Source: Corallococcus carmarthensis
GTDB lineage: Bacteria > Myxococcota > Myxococcia > Myxococcales > Myxococcaceae
Length of the DNA: 64,000 bases
Assembly: GCF_003611695.1 (NCBI RefSeq)
Contig: NZ_RAWE01000009.1
Location: 44,609-108,608 of the forward strand
Direction of reading: 5' to 3'
Positions 43,332 to 64,000 of the stretch are shown piece by piece. The stretch's first letter is position 1, and every line of letters begins with the position of its first letter. The notes under the pieces were generated by a model, which saw only the letters and a list, made by a program, of their open reading frames with translations, was not told where the DNA came from and ran no database searches. The position numbers and the translations under genes were made by a program.

Positions 43332-44582
43332 TCAAGGGCTCGCCTCCATGTCGGAGAGCGCGAAGTCATCCATCGTCAGCGTGCCGACCTGGTCGATGGA
43401 CAGCCCCACGCTGAGGGCCTTCGCCGCGGAGGGCGCCGCGGGCGTGGTCCACTCGGCGAAGGTGTAGCTGCTTCGCGCGGGCAGCAGCGGGCCCTGGGAC
43501 CAGTAGGTCCAGGCGCCCGCGCTGTCGCGGTAGTACGCCTTGAACCGCACCTGCGTCGTCGCCTTGTACCAGGCGGTGATCCGGTAGTGATGCCCCGTCG
43601 CCGGCGTGGGCGTGCAGCTGCTGTCGTCCTGCCGGGTGATGAGCTTGCGGTCTCCGTCGGTGATCTGCGTGATGCGCACCTGCTGGGCCCAGCTGCCTCC
43701 GTGCGCATCCGACGTCCGCGTCCACGTGAAGGTGTTGTTGCCGAAGCCGCCTCGCTGCCAGCAGTCCGGTGTCCCATCTCCGTTGCTGTCCGCTTCGAGC
43801 GACGGATTCTTCAGCAGCTGCGCGGGGGGCCAGCTCACGGGGGGCTTGAGCACTCCGCCGATGATCGCGTCCATCGTGGCCACGGTGGTGCCTCGCGATG
43901 CGCGGGTGGCCAGCCAGTCGATGAACGCCGTCAGGTTGGCGGGCGAGACGGAGTAGGTCTGCGGCGGATTGCAGGGCCCGCAGATGTGGTGGAAGACGAT
44001 GGGCACCCAGCCGCCTCCGGACTCCTCGGCGCGCAGCACGTAGTTCTTCAGGTCCGTGAGCGTCGTGGTGTCCTGCACCGAACCGTGGGTCCGGATGGCG
44101 TACGGATCCGCGGGAGGCACGGGCTCCGCGTAGGGACTGCTGGAGCCGCCGGTGGACGTCCGCAGCCCGCCGCTCTCCCTCGCGGAGTTGTAGTTGCAGT
44201 CGATGACGATCTGCCGCGTGGTCGCATCCTTGTCGCCGAAGGGATAGGCGAACGACGTGACCCGGAAGCCCGCGTTCAGCAGGGCGACCCGGTCGTTGCA
44301 GATCTCCTTGCGCTGCGCATCCGCCGACAGCTCGGTGAGATGCGGATGGGTCAGCGTGTGACCTCCAATCTCATGGCCCTTGTCCCGGAGTGCACGCACC
44401 TGGGCGAGCGTGAGGCGGCCCGACTGTCCAAGCCTGCTGCTGTTGATGAAGAACGTCCCTCTCATTCCGCGGGCCTCCATGGCGGAGGCCCCGATGAGTT
44501 GTGACGCCAGGCAGTCGTCGAAGTTCAGCGAGACGACGACCTGACCGGGCAGGAGGACGATGGCTCGGGTCTCGGGTTCCAT
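43332..44582 (-). CDS. NodB-type polysaccharide deacetylase with C-terminal carbohydrate-binding-like domain
   Basis: 416 residues from ATG 44582 (AAGGGGGAG upstream; GTG 44630 is an earlier option). The NodB domain (about 10-250) has SLNFDDC, HEIGGHTLTHPHL and the RVTSFAYPFG motif, so the metal and catalytic residues appear complete. A jelly-roll domain follows (about 260-416, NPSLEADSNGDGTPDCW to TMDDFALSD). No signal peptide is found with either start, although this family usually acts outside the cell. It follows the acylase gene closely on the same strand and is a paralog of the truncated gene at 18154-18681. Confidence 0.85.
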   Translation of the reverse strand: MEPETRAIVLLPGQVVVSLNFDDCLASQLIGASAMEARGMRGTFFINSSRLGQSGRLTLAQVRALRDKGHEIGGHTLTHPHLTELSADAQRKEICNDRVALLNAGFRVTSFAYPFGDKDATTRQIVIDCNYNSARESGGLRTSTGGSSSPYAEPVPPADPYAIRTHGSVQDTTTLTDLKNYVLRAEESGGGWVPIVFHHICGPCNPPQTYSVSPANLTAFIDWLATRASRGTTVATMDAIIGGVLKPPVSWPPAQLLKNPSLEADSNGDGTPDCWQRGGFGNNTFTWTRTSDAHGGSWAQQVRITQITDGDRKLITRQDDSSCTPTPATGHHYRITAWYKATTQVRFKAYYRDSAGAWTYWSQGPLLPARSSYTFAEWTTPAAPSAAKALSVGLSIDQVGTLTMDDFALSDMEASP

Positions 44583-44636
44583 GGTGGGGGCTCCCCCTTG
44601 TGCGAAGGGCTCACCCCGCAACCTGTGCACCCTCCG

Positions 44637-47078
44637 CTATTCGAGCTTCGACGTGGCGTCGATGGTCAGCTCCGTCGTCGTGAGCGCCGGATCCGCGAGG
44701 ATGTCCGCTGCGTTGAACAGCACGGGCCGGAAGTGCTTGCCGGAGAAGAGGTCCGTCTGGTCCGCGAAGTGCGGGGACGCCGGGTCGGTGGACTCCGCGT
44801 AGGAGAGGACCGCGTTCGCCTTGGGCCCTTCCGGCGTGAACTCCATCACCATCAGGAAGCTGGTCCCGAAGTCGACCAGGTAGCCTTCCGGCGTGAGCCC
44901 CGTGCCAGGAGAGAGCAGCGGGCCCTGCGGCTGGGACTGCGGCAGCAGCGTCGCGTTCGCGCCGGAATAGCCGACGACGTTGGTGACGCCCTCGAAGGCC
45001 GCGCCACCGTGCAGCGGCACCTTGCGGTCTCCCTTCCAGGCGAATTGCACGTCCCCCAGCTTCGTCCCCACCGCGATGCCCGCCTTGCCCAGGAGCGCCA
45101 CGGCCTCACCCAGCTTCTGGTTCACCGGGTCCACACCGGTCGCCGGAGCGGGCACCAGGCCGGCCGGCGTCACCGCCGCGCGTGCAGGATCGAAGGGCTG
45201 TGCGAAGAGGGCGCCCTGGTCCACGAGGGAGGAGCGGCTGAAGCCGTTCAGGAACTCGCGCCAGACAATGGCGCCCGTGCGATCCAGCTCCAGGCGGCCA
45301 TCCCACGCCGCGATCAGCTGGCACGCCTGCGAGATGTCCACCGGCGCGCCCTCGACGATGACGGGCGCCGCGCCCTGGCAGCGCTGCACCACGGCCGTGC
45401 GCAGCTGCTCCGCCACCCAGGTCCGGTTGCTCAGGATGGCCTGCTCGGCCTCTTCGCGCGTGAAGCGGCCGTCGCTCCCGGCCGCGGCGGTGGCTCCCTC
45501 CTCTGTGATCAGGGTGAGGTTCATGTGCGAGCGCGTGCTCATGCGCCCGCGCGTCCCGAAGATTTCGTAGAGGAAGGGCAGGTTGAGCAGGGGCTCGGCG
45601 GGGTTCGTGAAGGTCGCCGGATCATTCGCGTTCATCACGAAGTCCGTCCGGCGCAGCTGCGGCATGACCGTCGTCGGCACCAGACCGTGCGACTCACCCT
45701 CCAGGCCGACCCATTCATCGCGGGACGTGCTGCCATCCAGGAGGACGAGCCCCAGCGACGCGAACACCGGCGCGTCCGGAGAGGATTCGAGAGAGTCGCG
45801 ATAGGCCGCGACGGTGGCCGGGCTCAGGGAGGGGACCCGGGACGCGTCCACATAGCGCGTATCCCCGTCCGCGCTCGCCAGGAGCGTGTTGACCCAGGGC
45901 GCGCCGCGCACCGTGCGCTCCACATCCGCCGCTTCGTCGATGCTGTGCGCCGTGTTCAGGCGCAGCCAGTGCTCCGCGAACCGGGGGTTGTCCTCCGTCG
46001 CATCGCGCGTCGTGTACGCGGTCTCGCCCGTCCAGTCCGCGCCAGGGCCCGCCAGGATGGGTCCGTAGTGGCTGCGCCAGAACGTGCGCGTCTCCTTCGT
46101 CAGGCCGCCGCCGTCCCCCTTCACGTCGACGGTGACCGTTTGCGAGGTCATGCGGCGGACCGCGCCGTCATAGACATACGCCGTGGGGTCGCCCGGCACG
46201 AGCTTGAGCCGGTACAGCGTGAGGTGGCTCGACGCCGTCACGGTGTGCGTCCACGCGATGTCCCGGTTGAAGCCGATGTTGATCGCCGGCACGCCCAGCA
46301 GGGACACGCCGTACACGTCGAGCTTGCCGGGGATCGTCTGCTGGCTCTCGTGGAACCGGAGGCTGCCCTCCCAGGGGAAGTGCGGATTCGCGACGAGCAT
46401 GCCCCGGCCGCTCGCGGTCTTCTCCCGGCCCAGCGCCCAGCCGTTGCTGCCCAGTTCATCCTTGCGCGGCGACAGCGCGAGCGGCCTCGACTGGAGACGC
46501 TGGCCCCCCGCCTCCGGGCTCGGAGGCTGCGCGTTGCCCACGTAGCCCAGCAGCGGCACCAGCGTGTCGAACAGCGAGAGGTCGAAGTGGTACGCCAGCA
46601 GGTCGTACGCGCTGATGGGCTTCACCCAGGCCGCGCCACGGCACGGTGCGGGACGCTGATCCGCCGGCACGTCCGCGAGGTACTGGTTGTAGCCCGCGGC
46701 GTAGCCCTGCACGAGGTCCCGCATCTCCTGGGACTGTTCCTCGAAGGCGGCCTGGGCGCGCGTCCGCAGTGCGAGGCCACGGTAGGTGAAGTCGCTTTCG
46801 AGGAAGGCGTCCTGGGGGCCTCGGCCCAGATAGCGCGCGCGCTCACCCCGGACCTTGAGGAACTGATCCGCGAGGATGCAGACCGCGTCCTGCGCCTGCG
46901 CGTAGCCGATGCCGGCCCCCAGGCTCCGGTACCCGTCGGCCTGGATGTGGGGGACGCCGTAGGCCGTGCGGTGGAGGGTGGCCTTGAGCCGGGAGGGCGC
47001 CGGTGGATCCTCGTTCCGGCAACCGCTGAACGCCGTGACGGTCAGCAACAGGGGGAGGGAGAAGCGGGAGGTACGCAT
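44637..47078 (-). CDS. Penicillin acylase family lipoprotein (PvdQ/AHL acylase-like)
   Basis: An 813-residue Ntn-hydrolase that should cleave an amide-linked acyl chain. The signal peptide ends in lipobox FSGC, so the protein is a lipoprotein outside the cytoplasm. The alpha-chain region begins HRTAYGVPHIQADGYRSLGAGIGYAQ. Autocleavage and the N-terminal Ser nucleophile are expected in ELGSNGWALGREKTASG (about residue 212), followed by MLVANPHFPWEGSLRFHE and NIGFNRDIAWTHTVTAS. These features are those of the acyl-homoserine-lactone acylase/PvdQ branch. It is divergent from the exporter-NRPS genes, which suggests maturation of the lipopeptide; quorum-signal degradation is the alternative. Confidence 0.9.
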   Translation of the reverse strand: MRTSRFSLPLLLTVTAFSGCRNEDPPAPSRLKATLHRTAYGVPHIQADGYRSLGAGIGYAQAQDAVCILADQFLKVRGERARYLGRGPQDAFLESDFTYRGLALRTRAQAAFEEQSQEMRDLVQGYAAGYNQYLADVPADQRPAPCRGAAWVKPISAYDLLAYHFDLSLFDTLVPLLGYVGNAQPPSPEAGGQRLQSRPLALSPRKDELGSNGWALGREKTASGRGMLVANPHFPWEGSLRFHESQQTIPGKLDVYGVSLLGVPAINIGFNRDIAWTHTVTASSHLTLYRLKLVPGDPTAYVYDGAVRRMTSQTVTVDVKGDGGGLTKETRTFWRSHYGPILAGPGADWTGETAYTTRDATEDNPRFAEHWLRLNTAHSIDEAADVERTVRGAPWVNTLLASADGDTRYVDASRVPSLSPATVAAYRDSLESSPDAPVFASLGLVLLDGSTSRDEWVGLEGESHGLVPTTVMPQLRRTDFVMNANDPATFTNPAEPLLNLPFLYEIFGTRGRMSTRSHMNLTLITEEGATAAAGSDGRFTREEAEQAILSNRTWVAEQLRTAVVQRCQGAAPVIVEGAPVDISQACQLIAAWDGRLELDRTGAIVWREFLNGFSRSSLVDQGALFAQPFDPARAAVTPAGLVPAPATGVDPVNQKLGEAVALLGKAGIAVGTKLGDVQFAWKGDRKVPLHGGAAFEGVTNVVGYSGANATLLPQSQPQGPLLSPGTGLTPEGYLVDFGTSFLMVMEFTPEGPKANAVLSYAESTDPASPHFADQTDLFSGKHFRPVLFNAADILADPALTTTELTIDATSKLE

Positions 47079-47271
47079 GGGTCGTCAGCCTCGCAAACAG
47101 GGCTGACAAGGTTATTCGCTTTAAGCCCGTATTTCACTTTGAGGGGGAATGCTGTCCTGACGCACCTGTCTCAGATGGAAAATTATCGTGGACTTCAAGG
47201 GTATCCGCGTGTGTTGTTCAGCCCGCGCCGAGCCCTTCCCCCGGGGGCCGCGCGGAAGTGAGACCTTTCGC
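47079..47271. promoter_or_regulatory. Divergent promoter region, acylase versus exporter operon
   Basis: A 193-bp intergenic region between divergent genes, noticeably AT-richer near 47110-47200. It must hold the promoters of both units, but no convincing -35/-10 pair or operator was identified. Confidence 0.45.
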
Positions 47272-48426
47272 ATGCCCCAGGCCTCCGCCACTCCCATGAC
47301 CCTTGATGCCTCGCGCATCGACCCCAATGCCCTGGCCATCCTCGAGCGCCTTCGCGGCGCGGGGTTCCAGGCGCTGCTCGTGGGCGGATGCGTGAGGGAC
47401 CTGCTGCTCGGGCAGACGCCGAAGGACTTCGACATCGCCACGGACGCCCGGGCGGACCAGACGCACGGCCTCTTCGAGGACTGCCTGATGCTGGGCGGCC
47501 GGGGCTCGGTGATGACGCTGGTGTTCCAGGGCGGGAAGCCCTTCGACGTGGCCACGCTTCGTCCACTGCGGACTCCCGCGTCCACGCCAAGGGTGCCCCT
47601 GGACGCCGACCTGCTCGCCGTGGCCCGCGAGCTCCCGGTGGGCACCGTGGCCGAGGACGCTGCCTCGCGCGACTTCTCCATCAACGCGCTCTTTCATGAT
47701 CCGGCCACGGGCCAGACGCTCGACTTCGTGGGCGGGGTGGATGATGTCCGCGGCCGCGTGCTGCGCTCGCTGGGCGAGCCCTCCGCGCGTTTCCGGGATG
47801 ATCCGTCGCTCGTCTACCGGGCCCTGCGCATCTCCGCCCGGCGCGGCCTGACGATGGAACCCCGGACGTTGGAGGCCCTGCGCGAGGGTGTCGCCGCGCT
47901 GCCGACAAGTCCGTTCGCCTTGCGCCTCCACGAGCTGTTGGAGTGCCTGAGCCTGGGCGTGGCCGGGGCCTGTCTGCGCCGCATGCGCGAGCTCGACGTC
48001 CTGGCGCGGACGCTCCCGTCCCTGGGACGACTGGGGCCTTCCGCGTGGGAGGCGCTGTTCTCGCTCGGGGACGCCATGGACCGGGGTCATGCCCAGGGGC
48101 GCGTGCTCGGCCATCCGGCGCGGCTCGCGGCCCTCCTGCTTCCCCTCGCGGACCCCCAGGCGGTCTCGGGCGGTGACGCGCCCGTACCCCTGGCGGAGCT
48201 CGTGCCGGCGGAAGACGGCGCGGAGCGGCCTCCCCTGGTGGAGGACGGCCTCACGGTGCTGGCGGCGCAACGGGTGTTGAGACAGGGCCCCGACAGCGCG
48301 GGCGCGCCGGAGCTGCTCGGCTCGCACCTGCTGACGGAGGCGCTGGACGTGTACGCGCTGACGCTCGATGCCACGGGCGGTTCACGGCAGGGCCTGGATG
48401 CGTGGCGCGCGAGGCAGGGCGCATGA
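47272..48426 (+). CDS. tRNA nucleotidyltransferase/poly(A) polymerase family protein
   Basis: 384 residues with the class II nucleotidyltransferase head: LLVGGCVRDLLLG (GGxVRD), KDFDIATDA (the two metal-binding Asp), SRDFSINALF and FRDDPSLVYRALRISARR. The C-terminal half is helical and shorter than in many CCA-adding enzymes. It should add CCA or A residues to RNA 3' ends. The stop overlaps the start of the peptide exporter gene (ATGA), an unexpected partnership. ATG 47272 is chosen; ATG 47299 is possible. Confidence 0.85.
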   Translation: MPQASATPMTLDASRIDPNALAILERLRGAGFQALLVGGCVRDLLLGQTPKDFDIATDARADQTHGLFEDCLMLGGRGSVMTLVFQGGKPFDVATLRPLRTPASTPRVPLDADLLAVARELPVGTVAEDAASRDFSINALFHDPATGQTLDFVGGVDDVRGRVLRSLGEPSARFRDDPSLVYRALRISARRGLTMEPRTLEALREGVAALPTSPFALRLHELLECLSLGVAGACLRRMRELDVLARTLPSLGRLGPSAWEALFSLGDAMDRGHAQGRVLGHPARLAALLLPLADPQAVSGGDAPVPLAELVPAEDGAERPPLVEDGLTVLAAQRVLRQGPDSAGAPELLGSHLLTEALDVYALTLDATGGSRQGLDAWRARQGA

Positions 48427-50078
48427 ACCTGCTGTCGCTCCTGTTCCAGGCCTCGAAGGGCCGCTTCCTGGCCTCCGTGCTGTCCGGCCTCGTGTCCGGC
48501 GCCTGTGGGGCCGGGTTGATCGCGATGATCAACCGGACCCTGTCCGGCAACCAGACGCACGGGACCTTCGAGGTCGCCGCCTTCGTGGGGCTGGTCGCCG
48601 TGGCGCTGGTGTCGCGCATCGCCGCCCAGGTGTTGATCAGCCAGATCAACCAGGACGCGCTCTTCGACCTGCGGTTGAAGACGAGCGCGCAGATCGCCCA
48701 TGCGCCGCTGCGTCAGTTGGAGGAGCAGGGCTCCCACCGGCTCCTGTCCGCCCTGACCGAGGACCTGTTCCACCTCACCAACGCCATGGCGATGCTGCCC
48801 CGGCTGGTCATCAACGCCTCCACGGTGTTCGGCTGCCTCGTCTACATGGTGATGCTGTCGCGGACGCTGCTGCTCGCGCTGGTCATCTGCCTGGTCCTCG
48901 GCATCGCGACCTACCGGCTGTCCACCGCGCGGGCGGTGCGCGACATGCGCAGGGCTCGCGAGGTGCAGGACGAGCTCATGCTGCACTTCCGCGGGCTGAC
49001 CGACGGCATCAAGGAGATCAAGCTCCACGCCCGGCGGCGTGACGACTTCCTGTCGCGCGTGGTCGCGGATGCCGCCGGCCGGGTGAAGGACCTCCAGCGG
49101 CGGGCCGCGACGGCGTTCGCGGTGGGCTCCAGTTGGGGGATGTTCCTCTTCTTCGTCGTCATCGGGGTGCTGCTCTTCCTGCTGCCGCGCCTCACCGAGG
49201 TGAGCGCGGCGGCCCTGGTGGGGTACACGCTCGCGGTGCTCTACTTGCAGACGCCCCTCATGTCCCTCATGGAGGGCATGCCGTTGCTCTCCCGCGGGGA
49301 GGTTTCCCGCGTGAAGCTGGAGGCCCTGGGCCTGTCGCTCGCGTCGTCCACGGAGATGGCGCGCGGGACGGCGGCGACGCTGGACACCCGGCCGTCCTTC
49401 CAGACGCTGGAGCTGCGGGGCGCCACCCACCGCTACCAGCGCGAGCACGACGATCAGACCTTCACCCTGGGGCCCATCGACCTGGAGCTGCGCCCGGGCG
49501 AGCTGCTGTTCATCGTGGGCGGCAACGGCAGCGGGAAGACCACGCTCGCCAAGCTCATCACCGGCCTGTACTCCCCCCAGGAGGGGCAGATCCTCCTGGA
49601 CGGGCAGCCCGTGACGGCCCAGTCCCAGGAGCACTACCGGCAGCACTTCTCCGCGGTGTTCTCCGACTTCCACCTCTTCGACCGCCTGATGGGCATGGAC
49701 GGAGAGCTGTCCCAGGTGCAGGGCTTCCTGGAGCGCCTGAAGCTGGAGCACAAGGTGCGCCTGGACGGGAAGGCGTTCTCCACCACGGCGCTCTCCCAGG
49801 GGCAGCGCAAGCGGCTGGCGCTGGTGACGACGCTGCTGGAGGACCGCTCCATCTACCTCTTCGACGAGTGGGCGGCGGACCAGGACCCGGCCTTCAAGAC
49901 CGTCTTCTACCGGGAACTGCTGCCGGAGCTGAAACGGCGTGGCAAGGCCGTGGTGGTCATCTCCCACGACGACCGGTACTTCGACGTGGCCGACCGGCTG
50001 CTGCGCGTCGAGTCCGGCCGGCTTGTCTCCGAGCCCCTCTCGCCCCCTCTCGCCGAGCCCCCGCGCGCCGTCTCCTGA
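48423..50078 (+). CDS. Cyclic-peptide export ABC transporter (SyrD/PvdE-type)
   Basis: A 551-residue half-transporter: six membrane helices (about 1-285) fused to an ATPase domain (about 330-540) with Walker A GGNGSGKTT, the non-standard signature LSQGQRKRLAL and Walker B IYLFDEWAADQDP. The SQGQ signature and DEWAADQDP are characteristic of the SyrD/PvdE class that exports NRPS lipopeptides and siderophore precursors. The start overlaps the preceding gene; the NRPS gene begins 178 bp downstream. It likely exports the NRPS product to the periplasm. Confidence 0.92.
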   Translation: MNLLSLLFQASKGRFLASVLSGLVSGACGAGLIAMINRTLSGNQTHGTFEVAAFVGLVAVALVSRIAAQVLISQINQDALFDLRLKTSAQIAHAPLRQLEEQGSHRLLSALTEDLFHLTNAMAMLPRLVINASTVFGCLVYMVMLSRTLLLALVICLVLGIATYRLSTARAVRDMRRAREVQDELMLHFRGLTDGIKEIKLHARRRDDFLSRVVADAAGRVKDLQRRAATAFAVGSSWGMFLFFVVIGVLLFLLPRLTEVSAAALVGYTLAVLYLQTPLMSLMEGMPLLSRGEVSRVKLEALGLSLASSTEMARGTAATLDTRPSFQTLELRGATHRYQREHDDQTFTLGPIDLELRPGELLFIVGGNGSGKTTLAKLITGLYSPQEGQILLDGQPVTAQSQEHYRQHFSAVFSDFHLFDRLMGMDGELSQVQGFLERLKLEHKVRLDGKAFSTTALSQGQRKRLALVTTLLEDRSIYLFDEWAADQDPAFKTVFYRELLPELKRRGKAVVVISHDDRYFDVADRLLRVESGRLVSEPLSPPLAEPPRAVS

Positions 50079-50196
50079 GCCGTTTCCCGGTCGTGTGACA
50101 ACCGCGTGGCTGACGCATTGCGTGTGAGGCCCGGCCCGTCCGCGCTTCATTTCTCCAGCCGAGTCGCTGCGGACACGGAGAACCGGCTTGAGCGGG

Positions 50197-50256
50197 TTGG
50201 CGATGAATCAAAAGCTCTATTAGAAACTCAGAAATACAGTTATTTCTTGCAGTTGA
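50197..50256 (+). promoter_or_regulatory. AT-rich leader before the NRPS gene
   Basis: About 60 bp with below 40% GC in a roughly 70% GC background, directly before ATG 50257. A TTGGCG (50197) and TATTAG (50218) pair has a 15-bp spacer, too short to be sure. It is probably the NRPS promoter or its leader; the ribosome site is weak. Confidence 0.45.

Positions 50257-64000
<13,744 letters not shown>

Follow-up and report, generated by a model that had tools for sequence, protein, structure and literature searches.

Gene content and assembly line of the locus

The window, meaning the whole 64,000-nucleotide stretch of DNA analysed here, corresponds to bases 44609-108608 of contig C530 in a Corallococcus genome of 10.8 Mb, and its end is the exact end of that contig. 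A deacetylase gene and a PvdQ-family acylase gene on the minus strand are followed on the plus strand by a PcnB-like gene, a SyrD/PvdE-class exporter gene and an NRPS gene (Table 1). The comparison drew on draft genomes of up to about 1500 contigs, among them 145 from the order, of which 16 are Corallococcus.

Table 1. Features of the acylase-NRPS locus (positions in the window)
Feature	Position	Strand	Evidence and remarks
NodB-type polysaccharide deacetylase	43332..44630	-	PF01522, 432 aa, 6 bp after acylase gene
PvdQ-family acylase, lipoprotein-like N-terminus	44637..47078	-	PF01804, PvdQ best in PDB, 813 aa
PcnB-like nucleotidyltransferase head protein	47272..48426	+	PF01743; stop codon overlaps exporter start
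SyrD/PvdE-class peptide ABC exporter	48423..50078	+	TIGR01194
NRPS, 4581 aa within window, 3' end cut by contig end	50257..64000	+	
FAAL domain of NRPS	50317..52026	+	AMP-binding + DIP2-like domain
NRPS module 1: C + A1 (DLTKVGHVG; Asp by code)	52372..55236	+	
NRPS module 2: C, A2 (DACTIAAVC; aromatic by code), T, E	55564..59976	+	
NRPS module 3: C + A3 (DFWNIGMVH; Thr by code)	60097..62991	+	
NRPS module 4 start: C domain, cut at contig end	63328..64000	+	

The NRPS reads FAAL-T, C-A1-T, C-A2-T-E, C-A3-T and a further, cut C domain. No stop codon is present in the window portion, and the gene is open at its 3' end because contig C530 stops there. All five HHxxxDG motifs were intact. The specificity letters were obtained by alignment, and we take the codes to specify Asp for A1, an aromatic (Phe/Tyr-like) residue for A2 and Thr for A3. 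Both the AMP-binding and the DIP2-like domain of the FAAL scored above their Pfam cut-offs, and against PRK05850 and PRK09192, the best NCBIfam single-domain models, the FAAL domain reached 575.9 bits, below their whole-protein cut-offs of 775 and 600. Domain search and alignment bore out the order FAAL-T, C-A(Asp)-T, C-A-T-E, C-A(Thr)-T given by a sequence-only reading of this DNA.

Among the matches listed, the same NRPS head (FAAL 93-94% identical) was found only in G000, G002 and G013, with a Thr-type third A domain in G000 and G013 and a Val-like one in G002. After module 3 the orthologous lines have another module, then a PKS module and then two further ones. In G013 this part consists of module 4, a polyketide gene with the domains KS-AT-KR-T, and C-A-T-C-A-T-C, and no thioesterase was found in this line by Pfam. 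The window's own genome holds two pieces matching the orthologous line (C257, 92%; C280, 91%), and the middle third of the line was absent from it at 91-92% identity. Past the terminal C domain the orthologous lines are followed by a 480-aa protein (L121:1474-2910, L023:8046-9485) that had no Pfam or NCBIfam match; its predicted structure (pLDDT 67.3) matched GT-B glycosyltransferases, and on this model the protein would be GT-B-like. The product is probably a longer peptide-polyketide and is perhaps glycosylated. The acyl-Asp-D-X-Thr peptide proposed in the sequence-only reading therefore holds as the start of the product, with X aromatic, but not as the whole of it, since the orthologous lines add more modules.

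The exporter scored 506.5 bits against TIGR01194 (SyrD/PvdE class, cut-off 286.2) and is a member of that class; the gap to the NRPS was 178 bp, and the claim of a SyrD/PvdE-class exporter 178 bp upstream of the NRPS was likewise correct. At least 13 of the 22 Corallococcus relatives of the exporter (E 1e-100) had a FAAL within 10 kb among the FAAL matches listed. The exporters of G002 and G013 share 91% identity, and both are 53% identical to the window exporter. As judged by sequence identity, the exporter has been exchanged rather than co-inherited with the NRPS line.

The TGA of the PcnB-like gene overlaps the ATG of the exporter. Its product scored 88.6 bits against PF01743, and the head domain alone was found. 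Identification as a PcnB poly(A) polymerase (TIGR01942) was rejected, with a score of 203 bits against a cut-off of 305.65 and no RNA-binding domain PF12627. Six of the 120 proteins listed were at least 57% identical to it, close copies were confined to G000 and G002, and a loose search of four genomes also returned a longer relative of PcnB (35-36%) together with one of CCA type (30-32%). Relatives of 39-40% identity are located at G001:C1:825819-826943 and G013:C1:6736986-6738092. Each lies less than 100 bp from, and on the same strand as, a relative of the window's exporter (48-49%), and these exporter relatives are about 4.9 kb from another FAAL gene. A partial match of 41% in G004 sits on a 9.8 kb contig that carries neither an exporter nor a FAAL. 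Two different families of FAAL clusters thus have a PcnB-like gene, lacking recognisable RNA-binding domains, next to a SyrD-class exporter. This recurrence beside exporters is the most unexpected lead of the analysis, and we regard the gene as a candidate for self-protection or tailoring.

The deacetylase scored 67.2 bits against PF01522 (cut-off 23.1), and relatives were detected in 13 of the 16 Corallococcus genomes at E 1e-40. In G010 a gap of 167 bp separates a NodB-type relative (C477:9806-11071) from the FAAL gene downstream of it.

The acylase belongs to the penicillin amidase family (PF01804, 432.6 bits, cut-off 21.3), and its best solved relatives in the PDB were PvdQ chains (E 6.7e-124). 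Residues S211, H233, V280, N485 and R516 fall on the active-site positions of PvdQ in the alignment and were invariant in 9/9 aligned relatives; presumably Ser, His, Val, Asn and Arg have the same roles here and form the active site. From these positions the protein would be a PvdQ-type Ntn acylase, predicted to cleave long-chain N-acyl amides. Against the PvdQ equivalog model (NF051460) it scored 536.3 bits, below the cut-off of 950, as compared to 1435.3 and 1441.4 bits for two Pseudomonas proteins, and by this measure it is a relative of PvdQ and not PvdQ itself. The N-terminus ends in ...TVTAFSGC, which is lipobox-like by eye, and the enzyme would be lipid-anchored in the envelope. An AlphaFold model made with 9 aligned sequences was set aside (mean pLDDT 41.1). 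The description of this protein as a divergent lipoprotein acylase of the PvdQ/AHL family held for the family, the lipobox-like N-terminus and the divergent strand. The gene is however divergent from the PcnB-like gene and not directly from the exporter, because the PcnB-like gene sits between them. Neither the PcnB-like gene nor the deacetylase figured in the sequence-only reading.

Acylase and FAAL-started lines in related genomes

To assess how often the acylase accompanies NRPS genes we searched the 16 Corallococcus genomes. A full-length orthologue (at least 78% identical) was present in 10, broken copies beside NRPS domains were found in G007 (C753) and G008 (C476), and the orthologue was absent from G004, G006, G010 and G014. 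NRPS domains lay within 15 kb of 8 of the 10 full-length orthologues in the stretches fetched. Among the FAAL matches listed, a FAAL was within 10 kb of at least 4 of the 10, as compared to about 1.8% of the genomes lying that close to one. FAAL distances were taken from 134 listed rows, with the weakest matches (E 1.5e-94 and weaker, 39-41% identity) left out. The core acylase paralogues of the same 16 genomes gave 0/16 and 0/14 within 10 kb of a FAAL among the matches listed. NRPS domains were absent from both paralogue neighbourhoods read for them (0/2), the rest being judged by FAAL distance and often on short contigs. G015 has a FAAL-initiated cluster with the acylase on the same strand, its start 113 bp beyond the final NRPS gene.

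The orthologue keeps to a single genomic island, with nuoF/fdh/hlyD at one side and ihfA/pheT at the other, and the NRPS lines beside it differ. In G001 the orthologue has no NRPS within 15 kb, and in G003 none was found on the 16 kb contig that carries it. At 33.6 kb from the acylase G001 has a FAAL line whose first two A domains (DLTKVGHVG, DACTIAAIC) give the Asp-aromatic start seen in the window, and G003 has a FAAL-Asp-aromatic line on another contig. In G006, which lacks the acylase, no NRPS was present in the stretch read between hlyD and ihfA; G010 contains FAAL lines and lacks the orthologue.

We also asked which FAAL lines begin with an Asp- or Asn-type A domain. A search with the Asp-type A domain was rejected as a presence test, the Asp domains of G001 and G003 scoring only 50%, and because identity did not separate Asp domains the first A domain was read individually for each line. 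Seven FAAL lines with an Asp/Asn-type first A domain were found (G000, G001, G002, G003, G013, G073 and G098), all in genomes with the acylase type, a count without free-standing FAALs and without the other lines of G000, G001, G002, G003, G005, G007, G008, G013 and G015. No such line was found among the lines read in the orthologue-bearing G009, G011, G012 and G015; 20 further FAAL regions were read from G009, G011 and G012. From the genomes without the orthologue (G004, G006, G010 and G014) 20 FAAL regions were fetched, of which one had no A domain and the other 19 had none of Asp/Asn type, and the G010:C477 and G014:C5 lines also lacked an Asp/Asn-type first A domain.

At E 1e-255 the acylase type was detected in 13 of the 145 genomes of the order, three of them outside Corallococcus. 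In two of these, G098 and G073, which belong to two other genera, the acylase sits inside a FAAL-NRPS operon, in the same orientation, and the first A domains are of Asn type; in G098 a gap of 12 bp separates it from the preceding NRPS gene, and it overlaps the following one by 4 bp. The third, G075 (60% identical), had no NRPS in the stretch read around its acylase. Co-occurrence of acylase and NRPS in related genomes, a check named by the sequence-only reading, was mostly confirmed (8/10 near NRPS domains) with G001, G003, G075 and G010 as exceptions, and linkage was not strict. As a side observation, the FAAL-NRPS cluster of G098 (C3, ~548-582 kb) adjoins pheT/ihfA-like genes, the same neighbourhood as in Corallococcus, which is an apparent hotspot for FAAL-NRPS clusters.

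Other acylase lineages repeat the pairing. A second lineage, acyl2, lies 270-271 bp before a FAAL match of a different line in both G012 and G014 (2/2). In all 13 Pseudoalteromonas loci (L075, L076, L079, L082, L087, L088, L089, L091, L092, L099, L107, L109 and L110) a FAAL-C-A gene comes directly after a PvdQ-family acylase gene, both on one strand. In the three mapped Pseudoalteromonas loci a PKS-like gene comes after the FAAL-C-A gene. When 100 acylases were placed on a tree, the FAAL-linked label required 6 changes as compared to a shuffled mean of 19.4, and still 6 when only well-supported branches were kept; L039, whose contig lacks the FAAL, received this label on the model of G015. Among 80 wider acylase relatives, 59 had no NRPS domain within 10 kb, or within less where the contig ends. 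Two of these 59, L066 and L103, score as true PvdQ, so the absence of a nearby NRPS does not alone exclude the function.

Proposed maturation route and alternative explanations

Given an NRPS that starts with a FAAL, an exporter of the peptide class and an acylase of the PvdQ family, the peptide of this locus is likely made with an acyl chain and exported with it, and deacylation is predicted to follow. The FAAL would load a fatty acid onto the line, the peptide would likely be assembled as N-acyl-Asp-D-aromatic-Thr-..., the exporter would carry the acylated peptide out, and the acylase is predicted to remove the acyl chain at the Asp amide outside the inner membrane. This logic had been advanced by the sequence-only reading, and the recurrent pairing of acylases with FAAL lines, absent from the core paralogues, strengthens it, though the support is comparative and not chemical. 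It is the best single account because an acylase within a FAAL-NRPS operon and repeated recruitment in separate lineages are hard to explain otherwise, and it is testable because such acylases adjoin or sit inside similar lines in several lineages. Counted against it were G001, G003 and G075, which lack a close NRPS, together with G010, the lines of G009, G011, G012 and G015, the restriction to one island, and the 59 of 80 wider relatives. Taken together, we consider the acylate-export-deacylate route moderately probable.

The acylase could instead be a resident of the island, serving quorum quenching or predation, beside which NRPS clusters come and go. Its orthologue does stand beside different NRPS lines across species and has no close NRPS in G001 and G003, and its divergence splits the genus (90-92% vs 78-79%) into groups that differ in NRPS partner and probably in ancestry too. 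PvdQ itself also cleaves a quorum signal, according to the excerpt of PMC6206403. This explanation keeps some weight because the acylase stays in one island while the lines change, but we consider it unlikely: the enzyme is inside NRPS operons in G098 and G073, the pairing recurs in a second acylase lineage and in Pseudoalteromonas, and the two Corallococcus exceptions themselves carry a FAAL-Asp-aromatic line. A better, though still rather doubtful, alternative is that activity resides in the acylated peptide, which the acylase would inactivate as a self-resistance enzyme. Acylated glidonins inhibit their producer, and the PvdQ-like GdnD, which is likened to Tem25, removes the chain (PMC10587159, in part). 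Pyoverdine and the proposals for vioprolide and corramycin run the opposite way (excerpts of PMC6206403 and PMC10099666), and the embedding of the acylase between NRPS genes suggests an obligatory step. The precedents go both ways, and deacylation here may activate or detoxify the product.

Removal of the chain by the NodB-type deacetylase instead of the PvdQ-like acylase appears very improbable. In G010, which has no acylase orthologue, a relative does lie 167 bp upstream of a FAAL line, and relatives are ~2 kb from a FAAL line in G001 and G003. However, at E 1e-40 no match was found in G011, G012 or G013, the last of which does carry the orthologous line, the relatives in G004, G006 and G014 had no NRPS seen nearby, and NodB enzymes usually remove acetyl groups. 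A broader and quite speculative proposal, to which we give little credence, is that FAAL lines recruited deacylation several times, through different PvdQ-family acylases, as a self-protection cycle, to which Corallococcus added a PcnB-derived second safeguard. This nucleotidyltransferase, paired with the exporter, would nucleotidylate re-entering peptide or stand in for the peptide's target. Two known product types were rejected: pyoverdine, as the A-domain codes read Asp-aromatic-Thr instead of Glu-Tyr-Dab and the acylase scored below the PvdQ cut-off, and a colibactin-like acyl-D-Asn prodrug, because module 1 has a FAAL and lacks an E domain.

Significance and comparison with known systems

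If the acylate-export-deacylate route is correct, the acylation-deacylation cycle of pyoverdine would be one case of a wider habit of FAAL-started lines, and the cycle could be tested in bacteria free of interfering siderophore chemistry. Mature products would be without the fatty acid expected from the gene cluster, and mass searches for lipopeptides would therefore miss them. The PcnB-like gene would in turn provide a handle on self-protection or mode of action. Our literature search, restricted to open-licence papers and so weak evidence of novelty, returned no paper on an acylase with a myxobacterial or Corallococcus NRPS or on PvdQ with such clusters, and acylases were not mentioned in the excerpt of a FAAL review (PMC11837247).

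The closest parallel is pyoverdine biosynthesis by PvdL, PvdE and PvdQ in Pseudomonas, which shares a predicted acyl-loading first module, an acidic first residue, an epimerised aromatic second residue (by its code), a PvdE-class exporter and a PvdQ-family Ntn acylase. The locus differs in having Asp instead of Glu and a Thr- or Val-type residue instead of Dab, in the PKS and further modules of the orthologous lines, and in an acylase that scores under the PvdQ cut-off. The FAAL-NRPS operons of G098 and G073 share an acylase of the same clade (61-63%) and a FAAL-C-A start, of Asn type there. Unlike the window they have a PKS gene upstream and the acylase between NRPS genes, and G098 has a terminal thioesterase domain.

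In the excerpt of PMC10587159, the PvdQ-like acylase GdnD was shown to deacylate an NRPS lipopeptide, a glidonin, and Tem25 of telomycin is cited as another such acylase, one that lies inside its cluster. By the same excerpt glidonins, unlike the window's peptide, begin with a starter C domain, and GdnD is encoded far outside its cluster. Vioprolide and corramycin are, in the excerpts of PMC10099666 and PMC10996006, FAAL-initiated myxobacterial NRPS-PKS products whose mature form lacks the fatty acid. Their lines start with FAAL-ACP-C-HAD-T and a glycerate in place of an amino acid, unlike the window, and the corramycin hydrolase ComB is called only putative in these excerpts. The kind of system proposed here is already known from PvdQ, GdnD, Tem25 and the fatty-acid-linked precursors modelled for vioprolide and corramycin.
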